From assembly GCA_902386255.1 (NCBI GenBank), contig CABMII010000033.1, positions 1-36,886 on the forward strand: a stretch of DNA of 36,886 bases, written 5' to 3'. This DNA is from an uncultured archaeon. Lineage in GTDB: Archaea > Halobacteriota > Methanosarcinia > Methanosarcinales > Methanoperedenaceae. Position numbers and translations under genes: made by a program. The notes beneath the pieces were generated by a model, which saw only the letters and a program-made list of their open reading frames with translations, was not told the DNA's origin and ran no database searches. Positions 23,052 to 25,449 of this stretch are shown here, piece by piece (the stretch's first letter is position 1; every line of letters begins with the position of its first letter).

Positions 23052-23393
23052 ATGCAAGAAAGAAATCGAATCAAAGAAGCAAAAAAAATCCTCGACAACA
23101 TCGTAAGCAGGCTCAGGCAGGATTATGAACCAGAGCAAATAATTCTATTTGGCTCGTATGCATACGGAAAGCCAACCGATGAAAGCGATCTCGATTTGCT
23201 GATAGTAAAAGAGACATGTGAACCAATTTTAGCCCGCTGGATGAGGGTTCGAAAAATGGTATCAGATTTAAGGAAAGGCATAGCATTCTCACCGATTATC
23301 GTTACTCCTTCGGAGCTTAAAAACAGGCTTGGGAAGGGGGACCCATTTTTTGAGGAGATTCTCCGGAGGGGCAAGAAACTTTATGTTAGATAA
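23052..23393 (+). CDS. Minimal nucleotidyltransferase (MntA-type antitoxin)
   Basis: A 113-residue protein of the DNA polymerase beta superfamily. The motif GS-x10-D-x-D is complete (Gly34-Ser35, then Asp46 and Asp48, in FGSYAYGKPTDESDLDLL). In the Shewanella MntA-HepT pair this motif is needed to add AMP to the HEPN toxin and silence it. The gene overlaps the HEPN gene by 11 bp. TATA-like and AT-rich sequence lies just upstream, with no strong Shine-Dalgarno sequence. Confidence 0.85.
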   Translation: MQERNRIKEAKKILDNIVSRLRQDYEPEQIILFGSYAYGKPTDESDLDLLIVKETCEPILARWMRVRKMVSDLRKGIAFSPIIVTPSELKNRLGKGDPFFEEILRRGKKLYVR

Positions 23394-23778
23394 AGAATCG
23401 AGCCTTCCAGAAGACTGGTTTAAAAAAGGAGAGGATGATAAGCAGGCAGTGGGGATTTTGTTAGAGCATGGGGGCAAAAGTTCGGTAGCTGCATTTCTCA
23501 TTCAGCAGATGTTAGAAAAATATATGAAGGGATTTCTGCTTTCAAAAGGTTGGAAACTTAAACGGACCCATGACCTTGAGGAACTTCTTGACGAGATGGT
23601 TGAATTTGATAAATCGTTTGAAATATTCAGGGAAATAGCTCAAAAAGCCACTGCGTTTTATTTTTTAGAGCGGTATCCATTTTTTTCGGAAGAATTAAAC
23701 CAAGAAGAAGTCAAAAATACTTTTCTTGAATCCTTGAAGTTAATCGGAAAAATTGAAAAATCCTTTCAGACTAGATAG
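23383..23778 (+). CDS. HEPN-domain protein (partner of the MNT gene)
   Basis: A 131-residue helical protein. The ATG at 23383 is preferred because GGAGGGG lies 11 bases upstream and because it gives MLDKESSLPEDWFKKGEDD, the usual HEPN (PF05168-like) start; the upstream extension only re-reads MNT sequence. Further marks are AAFLIQQMLEKYMKGFLL, THDLEELL and FLERYPFF. I see no canonical R-x4-6-H ribonuclease motif, so toxicity by RNA cleavage is not shown by the sequence. It may be a non-nucleolytic HEPN/MNT pair. Confidence 0.8.
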   Translation: MLDKESSLPEDWFKKGEDDKQAVGILLEHGGKSSVAAFLIQQMLEKYMKGFLLSKGWKLKRTHDLEELLDEMVEFDKSFEIFREIAQKATAFYFLERYPFFSEELNQEEVKNTFLESLKLIGKIEKSFQTR

Positions 23779-23792
23779 ATAAGGAAATAATC

Positions 23793-24284
23793 ATGCCACA
23801 GCATCAATCGAATCTAAAACGCGTCCGCGCCATAGCCGATTACCAGTTCGGGCGCGGTGCAGGCGAAGTACTTTTTCCTGACAACGTGGAATTCCAGTTG
23901 TCAACCACAAAAAGAATCCGCCAGATACTGCTTGATAATAACCGCATAGCCACGGTGAGGGCAAAGGACGGAATGCTGACGCTTAGTATCATGGGCGCTG
24001 GGAAGCTTCACGGCTTCATCGGTCATCCGGGGCGCAGAGTCGTGGTTAACAGCGATGCAGCACCTTTTGTGGCGAAAGGCAAAACCGCTTTTGCGAGGCA
24101 TGTGGTGGCTGCCGACCCAGATATCAGGGCTGGCGAGGAAGTTCTCGTGGTTGATGAGAATGACCGTCTGCTCGCTACGGGGAAAGCCGTGCTGTCTCCT
24201 CTTGAAATGCTCTCGTTTAAGAAGGGCATTGCTGTGGATGTGAGGAACGGGATTGATAGCGGGGATAAGGCAGATAGCGAGTGA
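23793..24284 (+). CDS. PUA-domain protein, resembling the C-terminal part of archaeosine tRNA-guanine transglycosylase
   Basis: A 163-residue protein. Residues 1-75 (RVRAIADYQFGRGAGEVLFP to TLSIMGAGKLH) resemble the domain that precedes PUA in archaeal tRNA-guanine transglycosylase. Residues about 80-155 are a PUA RNA-binding domain with RRVVVNSDAAPFVAKGK, FARHVVAADPDIRAGEEVLVV and LLATGKAVLS. In some Methanosarcinales, arcTGT is split into separate catalytic and PUA polypeptides; this may be such a PUA subunit or a free-standing paralogue. AAGGA seven bases before the ATG supports the start. It lies 14 bp behind a HEPN gene but is probably unrelated to it. Confidence 0.75.
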   Translation: MPQHQSNLKRVRAIADYQFGRGAGEVLFPDNVEFQLSTTKRIRQILLDNNRIATVRAKDGMLTLSIMGAGKLHGFIGHPGRRVVVNSDAAPFVAKGKTAFARHVVAADPDIRAGEEVLVVDENDRLLATGKAVLSPLEMLSFKKGIAVDVRNGIDSGDKADSE

Positions 24285-24308: not shown

Positions 24309-24731
24309 TCATTTACTCTTTTCTATGAAAATTTCTATTCTCTCCAGAAATTCTCTTGCGGAATTCAGTGCAGCATTTGCCTCTTTCTCGTCAATAGCGA
24401 AATCAAGCCCGTAAATTGCATCGTGCCTGAATCTTCTGTATGAATCAAGAATATTTGCCAGGGTCTCCAATTGCGGATACTTTTCCTTAAGATAAACAGG
24501 AATACATTCATGACTGCGCTCTTTTATACCGTCCCTGAAAAGGATGGCTCTTGCTGCATGAAACATGGATGAATAACTCGATATAGCGACGACCCTGTAA
24601 CGATGTATGGACATATTCCCAACAGCATCCTCTATATTACTCTTTGAAAGCTCAAGGGAACGAAGGGCATTTTCCATATCAGGCGATGTCCTTTTGAGCA
24701 GCCCCTTCTGGAAGCATTCTGCCATTTTCAT
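24309..24731 (-). CDS. HEPN-domain protein (second module)
   Basis: A 140-residue HEPN protein of a different subgroup from the one at 23383: SSYSSMFHAARAILFRDGIKERSHECI and SYRRFRHDAIYGLDF are hallmarks. The conserved RH of the last motif is present, but spacing does not give a clear R-x4-6-H. The start overlaps the stop of the winged-helix MNT gene as ATGA, so the pair is coupled. Likely the toxin-like or substrate-binding half of a toxin-antitoxin-like module. Confidence 0.8.
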   Translation of the reverse strand: MKMAECFQKGLLKRTSPDMENALRSLELSKSNIEDAVGNMSIHRYRVVAISSYSSMFHAARAILFRDGIKERSHECIPVYLKEKYPQLETLANILDSYRRFRHDAIYGLDFAIDEKEANAALNSAREFLERIEIFIEKSK

Positions 24732-25300
24732 TTTAAACCGCTCCCATAGAGCAGAATATGGTTATCGACAATCCTTTTATAAAATGCATCGCCTTTTTTT
24801 GCCATATCCCTCCATTCTGATAATTTTACTACTGATAAACTTACCTCTTTTTCCAGTTCTTCCTCCAGTATTTTTGCTGCATTTATGAGATTTTCTTTCC
24901 CGGCGTTTGTCACAACCAGAAAATCTATATCACTTTTTTCATCAAAACTGCCTTCCGCATAGCTTCCAAAAAGAGCAAGTGAGATGATATTCGGGTCTAT
25001 TTCAAGGAATCTTTCTTTTGGTTTTGATGAGAGTACGAAAGCGATACCGTATGCTTTTTTCAGCGGCGCAACCATGCTGTTATCTGAGTCCAGCCTGTAA
25101 ATATGAGCCAGCCCTTTTTCCTCCTTCGACAGCAGCCCGTCTTCCTCGAATGATTTTACAGCACTGCTCACGCTCGCGGGACTTACGTTTAGCATTCTGG
25201 CAAGCTGTTTTATGTGGAAAGATGTATTCGGGTTAGCCAGGAAATGAGACAGGATTTTCCATTTTACATATTGTCTGAATAGTTCAATCAACTGAACCAC
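24728..25300 (-). CDS. Winged-helix plus nucleotidyltransferase fusion (MNT with DNA-binding domain)
   Basis: A 190-residue protein. Residues about 8-70 form a winged helix (VKWKILSHFLANPNTSFHIK, LARMLNVSPASVSSAVK, a wing near LSKEEKGLAHIYRL). Residues about 95-185 are an MNT domain with complete GS-x10-D-x-D (Ser113, Asp124, Asp126, in FGSYAEGSFDEKSDIDFLVV). The GTG start at 25300 lies inside an inverted repeat, and TATA-like boxes upstream suggest a leaderless message. The DNA-binding domain probably controls this operon through the GTTCA sites at 25282-25331. Confidence 0.85.
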   Translation of the reverse strand: MVQLIELFRQYVKWKILSHFLANPNTSFHIKQLARMLNVSPASVSSAVKSFEEDGLLSKEEKGLAHIYRLDSDNSMVAPLKKAYGIAFVLSSKPKERFLEIDPNIISLALFGSYAEGSFDEKSDIDFLVVTNAGKENLINAAKILEEELEKEVSLSVVKLSEWRDMAKKGDAFYKRIVDNHILLYGSGLK

Positions 25301-25331
25301 CGTTCAGTATATTAAACGTAAGTTCAGTATA
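25282..25331. promoter_or_regulatory. Probable operator: GTTCA repeated every 20 bp over the start of the winged-helix MNT gene
   Basis: GTTCA occurs at 25282, 25302 and 25322, exactly 20 bp (about two helical turns) apart; the last two extend to GTTCAGTATA. In addition, ACTGAAC (25291-25297) and GTTCAGT (25302-25308) form a perfect inverted repeat whose centre covers the GTG start codon (25298-25300). The encoded protein has a winged helix, so autoregulation is the natural reading. Confidence 0.6.
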
Positions 25332-25449
25332 AAAAACTATCTGAGTGCATTTCACTCCAACCTAGATTCCCCAATCAGCTTACTGAGGATTTGACGCCAA
25401 TACAAATCCCTAACATTTTATTACCCCTGGTTATCTCCTCGCATGGTAA

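Follow-up and report, generated by a model that had tools for sequence, protein, structure and literature searches.

Tandem palindromes two helical turns apart over the promoter and start codon of an archaeal wHTH-MNT/HEPN operon: probable operators of its own winged-helix protein

Analysis of positions 25282-25331 in a 36.9-kb stretch of DNA from a methane-oxidising archaeon (the whole of which is called the window here) indicated that this block is probably the operator-promoter of a toxin-antitoxin-like wHTH-MNT/HEPN operon, repressed by dimers of its own wHTH-MNT protein on tandem palindromes; we put the probability of this reading at about 0.85. An autoregulatory switch had been proposed in a preliminary description of the DNA, and is supported by the two-turn spacing found before homologues of diverse lineages and by site sequences that track the recognition helix. 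On these sequence comparisons autoregulation by the encoded wHTH-MNT protein appears well supported, and from conservation and the association of helix and site we infer that the protein binds the block and represses the operon.

Read on the coding (minus) strand, the block is TTTTTTATACTGAACTTACGTTTAATATACTGAACGGTGGTTCAGTTGATTGAAC. GTTCA occurs at 25282, 25302 and 25322, exactly as first described and with the 20-bp period claimed there; no other GTTCA triple of the window is equally spaced at 10 to 60 bp, and none of 100 dinucleotide shuffles gave a triple at 20 bp. The perfect ACTGAAC-N4-GTTCAGT repeat also reported there occupies 25291-25308 as ACTGAAC-CACC-GTTCAGT, its 4-bp spacer lying over the GTG codon (25298-25300, minus strand). 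The tandem dyads are TGAAC-N4-GTTtA (25313-25326) and TGAAC-N4-GTTCA (25293-25306), with centres exactly 20 bp apart, while no arm is paired at N4 spacing with the GTTCA at 25282, which is therefore a half-site in coding sequence; the claim of three sites thus holds for the two dyads but the third was rejected as a full operator. Candidate operator site 1 (25313-25326, minus strand) is TGAAC-TTAC-GTTTA, one mismatch from TGAACN4GTTCA, with an imperfect right arm, and adjoins a TATA-like box. Candidate operator site 2 (25291-25308, minus strand) is the perfect dyad, which reads ACTGAAC-GGTG-GTTCAGT on this strand, and the third TGAAC half-site (25282-25286, minus strand) lies 20 bp further on. 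Placing the sites on one face of the helix, as had been done, is approximately right, 20 bp being 1.9 turns at 10.5 bp per turn.

Only two matches to TGAACN4GTTCA with at most one mismatch were found in the 36.9 kb, exactly 20 bp apart, and the composite tandem site has a single occurrence in the 2.6-Mb Candidatus Methanoperedens genome even when three mismatches are allowed. The perfect inverted repeat was rejected as a signal by itself, since perfect N4 repeats with 7-bp arms in the window numbered four versus 2.9 expected, which is not significant; the unusual feature is the tandem arrangement and its conservation rather than the single 7-bp-arm dyad. A genome-wide regulon motif was rejected for the composite site, which is unique in the genome. 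Exact single TGAACN4GTTCA sites were found 12 times in the whole genome (G000) versus two for the reversed control, an excess that may point to further targets of the protein or to further readers of the motif. Several of these 12 sites read TGAACCGTGGTTCA or the complement of it and might belong to a dispersed element.

The putative TATA-like box, TTTTTTATA (25328-25336, minus strand), is directly upstream of site 1 and conserved in orthologues, and its centre is about 32 nt from the GTG. In archaeal promoters a box in this position places the transcription start within a few nucleotides of the GTG, so that a leader of a few nucleotides is as likely as strict leaderlessness. The GTG at 25300 is invariant in 19 orthologues; a rival start is the TTG at 25291, three codons past the GTG, which is ATG in two orthologues (L013 and L021), and the GGTG at the GTG could be a Shine-Dalgarno sequence for this downstream TTG. 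Strict leaderlessness was rejected as a reading because the GTG and the downstream TTG/ATG are not distinguishable; of the leaderless start claimed in the preliminary description, 'nearly leaderless' is fair.

The wHTH-MNT gene, identified with Pfam and PADLOC, spans 24728-25300 (minus strand) and codes for 190 amino acids from the GTG (alternative start TTG 25291). The fusion of a winged helix to an MNT domain, proposed from the letters only, was borne out by Pfam matches to MarR_2/HTH_24 and NTP_transf_2 and by an AlphaFold model (mean pLDDT 92.8) in which a helix-turn-helix, recognition helix and wing come before the MNT fold. The best PDB structural matches of the model were MntA antitoxins of solved HEPN-MNT complexes, archaeal and MarR-type wHTH regulators ranking lower. 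The recognition helix, residues 41-53 (PASVSSAVKSFEE; 25142-25180, minus strand), corresponds to AlphaFold helix 38-50 in model numbering and is followed by the wing strands. The MNT motif GSYAEGSFDEKSDID (24923-24967, minus strand) has the form GSX10DXD, the active-site motif of HEPN-MNT type VII, which is intact here, and its six residues are invariant in a 17-row family alignment (A1). The PADLOC PDC-M05A profile PDLC04368 matched full-length over residues 7-183 (E 2.1e-26), and paralogous wHTH-MNT proteins likewise matched PDC-M05A. The curated MntA family NF047752 gave 35.6 bits, below its cut-off of 60, and the AbiEi profile only 5.3e-4, over the wHTH part. The labels 'antitoxin' and 'enzyme' are putative and rest on homology.

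The HEPN gene (24309-24731, minus strand; Pfam HEPN PF05168, 3.1e-13) overlaps the wHTH-MNT stop by 4 nt, and a HEPN gene usually comes after the paralogous wHTH-MNT genes too. Its match to PDC-M05B was weak (8.8e-4), and the canonical RX4-6H was not found in the 140-aa sequence as read by eye, the region reading YRRFRHDAIYG; altered motifs have been described in PF05168 members (PMC3710099). A second HEPN-MNT pair at 23052-23778 (plus strand), without a winged helix, is convergent to the first pair and is separated from it by a TGT_C2/PUA gene (23793-24284). In Methanoperedens BLZ2 (L037 3570-6569, also L009) the HEPN position is taken, with the same 4-nt overlap, by an ORF of 1000 aa or more which looks like a type I restriction subunit, and the upstream operator is intact. 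The second wHTH-MNT/HEPN locus of the genome of the window (L136, G000:C163:168-1592) has a GTAAACT tandem at 20 bp and begins right at the end of a DNA-methyltransferase-like ORF, the stop of which lies within the operator.

Alignment of 19 close orthologues (drawn from Methanoperedens, from a sister family and from two archaea further removed, with L024 left out as its start is truncated) revealed conservation of both dyads, of the TATA-like box and of the start with zero indels, while DNA further upstream is unalignable. With positions numbered from codon 4, the majority-base fraction was 0.89 over -46 to -1 versus 0.46 over -100 to -47. Site 1 is in register in the 19 orthologues and the site 2 core, TGAACGGTGGTTCA, is nearly invariant, as are codons 5-6 (ATT GAA) at the third half-site. 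The spacer GGTG of site 2 is invariant while that of site 1 is variable, which indicates that the start codon or the Shine-Dalgarno-like GGTG adds constraint. Synonymous change was lower in the first codons than over the remainder of the gene (p = 0.0002), though general constraint near starts, among other causes, could account for this. The motif was absent from one distant orthologue (L021). A decaying second copy of the wHTH-MNT gene of the window was also seen (L098, G019:C19:14300-15300), with 71% identity over the wHTH and an internal TAA.

A search for the same spaced motif before homologous genes, proposed with the initial claim, was positive, and the two-turn spacing recurs before wHTH-MNT genes. 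Homologues were picked by protein similarity only and the lag of the strongest self-match was determined within the region from -75 to +30. The best lag was 20 in 65 of the 85 wHTH-MNT genes of the order, 22 in nine and 21 in three; for clusters below 45% identity, lag 20 was favoured by 12 of 16, lag 22 by two and lag 21 by one. Of a further 56 genes, fetched once the pattern was known and belonging mostly to other families of the class and phylum, 51 had lags of 20-22 (28 at 20, 15 at 21 and 8 at 22). Representatives below 45% identity were at lag 20-22 in 27 of 30 cases, as against a mean of 4.3 and a maximum of 7 when these sequences were dinucleotide-shuffled, and the mean lag score over representatives peaked at 20 and 22 only. 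Among 20 MNT genes without a winged helix, lag 20 was found in none and lag 21 in two. The bacterial plasmid homologues (Comamonas, Cupriavidus, Sulfuricella, Bradyrhizobium and uncultured) carry tandem palindromes of the CCC/GGG or GCC/GGC type at 21-22 bp that touch the start codon in 5/5, this lag ranking first in two of the five and within the top three in all. Among distant wHTH-MNT genes half-sites differ and the two-turn spacing is the same.

The half-site differs between wHTH-MNT paralogues even inside one genome, and the same recognition-helix type goes with the same half-site across genomes. The SPAS/SPGSVSxAVK type is paired with TGAAC, SPMTVKRxLD with GATACA, SPGSAKTYCD with TTGAACGAT and NxNAVRREL with TGAATAC, while the pairings of SPMTVKR with GATACAATTGTATC and of KGLVSRYL with GTAAACA hold in genomes of different families. 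Operator similarity correlated modestly with recognition-helix identity (r 0.29); with MNT-domain or rest-of-wHTH identity controlled for, the partial r was 0.21 (p 2e-4, from a permutation that treats related proteins as exchangeable and is not phylogeny-aware). Identity over the rest of the wHTH correlated with operator similarity about as well as helix identity, and relatedness also contributes to the correlation. Such tracking of the recognition helix by the half-site is expected if the encoded protein regulates its own gene, and speaks against a common external regulator. Across a phylum of archaea and on five bacterial plasmids the spacing is kept while the site sequence is particular to each subfamily, which strongly suggests that every one of these antitoxin enzymes represses the gene that encodes it. 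In one Methanoperedens genome (G006) the wHTH-MNT protein had 14 matches, and several of these combine different half-sites with the same spacing.

The putative antitoxin thus carries a DNA-binding domain, the wHTH, and the candidate operators overlap its own TATA-like box and start. In the mechanism that we propose, winged-helix dimers of the MNT protein would bind the two tandem palindromes, and as the palindrome centres are 20 bp (about two turns) apart, adjacent dimers would sit on nearly the same helix face. The dimers would cover the DNA from the TATA-like box through the start codon and exclude the archaeal transcription machinery, by which the protein would repress its own operon. Nucleotidylation of the HEPN partner by the MNT domain is very probable, so that one polypeptide would be both enzyme and repressor, and HEPN might bridge or tune the repressor. 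Cooperativity between dimers, AMPylation and the possible HEPN role in tuning are, like binding and repression, predicted steps. A wider rule, to which we give somewhat less than even odds, is that wHTH-MNT (PDC-M05A) proteins of archaea and bacteria share operators of two to three tandem palindromes at 20-22 bp over the promoter and start, with half-sites of each subfamily's own; as the repressor would itself be the modifying enzyme, HEPN binding or modification could directly set transcription. If true, toxin neutralisation and gene control would be joined in a single polypeptide.

Repression might also be exerted by a HEPN-containing complex, in which HEPN bridges the dimers and the toxin:antitoxin ratio or AMPylation state sets transcription (conditional cooperativity). 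This is an extension of self-repression rather than exclusive of it, and we regard it as possible though somewhat doubtful: the two-turn spacing fits neighbouring dimers and known HEPN-MNT complexes are oligomeric, (HepT)6-(MntA)2 or 1 MNT : 4 HEPN (PMC7641770, PMC11586414), but the BLZ2 operator is intact with the long ORF in the HEPN position, so that retention of the site does not depend on HEPN.

A different host regulator could read the tandem dyads in place of the encoded wHTH and control several HEPN-MNT operons, which the 12 single exact TGAACN4GTTCA sites of the genome, that of the window included, would suit. Such a regulator is nevertheless very unlikely, for the composite tandem site is found solely at this locus in the genome, wHTH-MNT paralogue operons of one genome have different half-sites at the same spacing, half-sites go with the encoded recognition helix even between families, and the pattern is absent at MNT genes without a wHTH. 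Less probable still is that the repeats work on the transcript or on the start of translation, as an RNA hairpin or ribosome-binding control, and not as DNA operators. Although site 2 spans the start codon and its spacer is the invariant one, the expected transcript start is downstream of site 1, which is next to the TATA-like box; many relatives have both palindromes upstream of the start codon, and a hairpin has no need of direct repeats 20-22 bp apart. That the repeats arose by chance in an AT-rich promoter has a negligible probability; a single 7-bp-arm N4 repeat is ordinary in the window, but the tandem is unique in the genome, the arrangement recurs across families, and the comparative data contradict chance.

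PDC-M05 is an archaeal-enriched phage-defence candidate of probable archaeal origin, its antiviral role being unconfirmed (PMC12988326), and the M05A gene is reported to be up during phage infection in Burkholderia (PMC12584637). No description of PDC-M05 operator architecture and self-regulation was found in the papers examined, nor any report of two-turn tandem operators, subscription papers being mostly outside the search, and a search on type VII autoregulation gave no relevant papers. The arrangement described here offers a testable model for PDC-M05 switching. With a DNA-binding part fused to the enzyme, operators are directly readable for many paralogues; the many protein-operator pairs would allow winged-helix specificity and insulation between paralogues to be studied, and the tandem operator is a motif for annotating start sites.

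The operon of the window resembles the PDC-M05 system of PADLOC (PDC-M05A nucleotidyltransferase and PDC-M05B HEPN) full-length in its wHTH-MNT protein and weakly in its HEPN. With HEPN-MNT (HepT/MntA) type VII it shares an MNT gene first and an overlapping HEPN second, GSX10DXD and an MntA-like model, and it differs by the N-terminal winged helix, a HEPN without canonical RX4-6H and the two-turn tandem operators. The MNT-HEPN survey of 2009 saw no DNA-binding component and proposed one in trans (PMC2701414). In the SO_3165/SO_3166 system of Shewanella oneidensis the MNT antitoxin acts as a repressor, bound to its own promoter; MNT self-repression, predicted here, and two palindromes, there near -10 and -35, are shared features (PMC4621449), but no DNA-binding domain is recognisable in the Shewanella MNT protein, and the two Shewanella palindromes do not resemble each other. 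AbiE type IV is alike in its wHTH antitoxin and tandem inverted repeats: AbiEi and Rv2827c, both wHTH antitoxins, control their own expression from inverted repeats that recur across the promoter (PMC7319586). In AbiE, however, the nucleotidyltransferase (AbiEii) is a separate toxin protein and the repeats are of 23 bp with 3-13 bp gaps, whereas here wHTH and nucleotidyltransferase are in one protein and the partner is HEPN.
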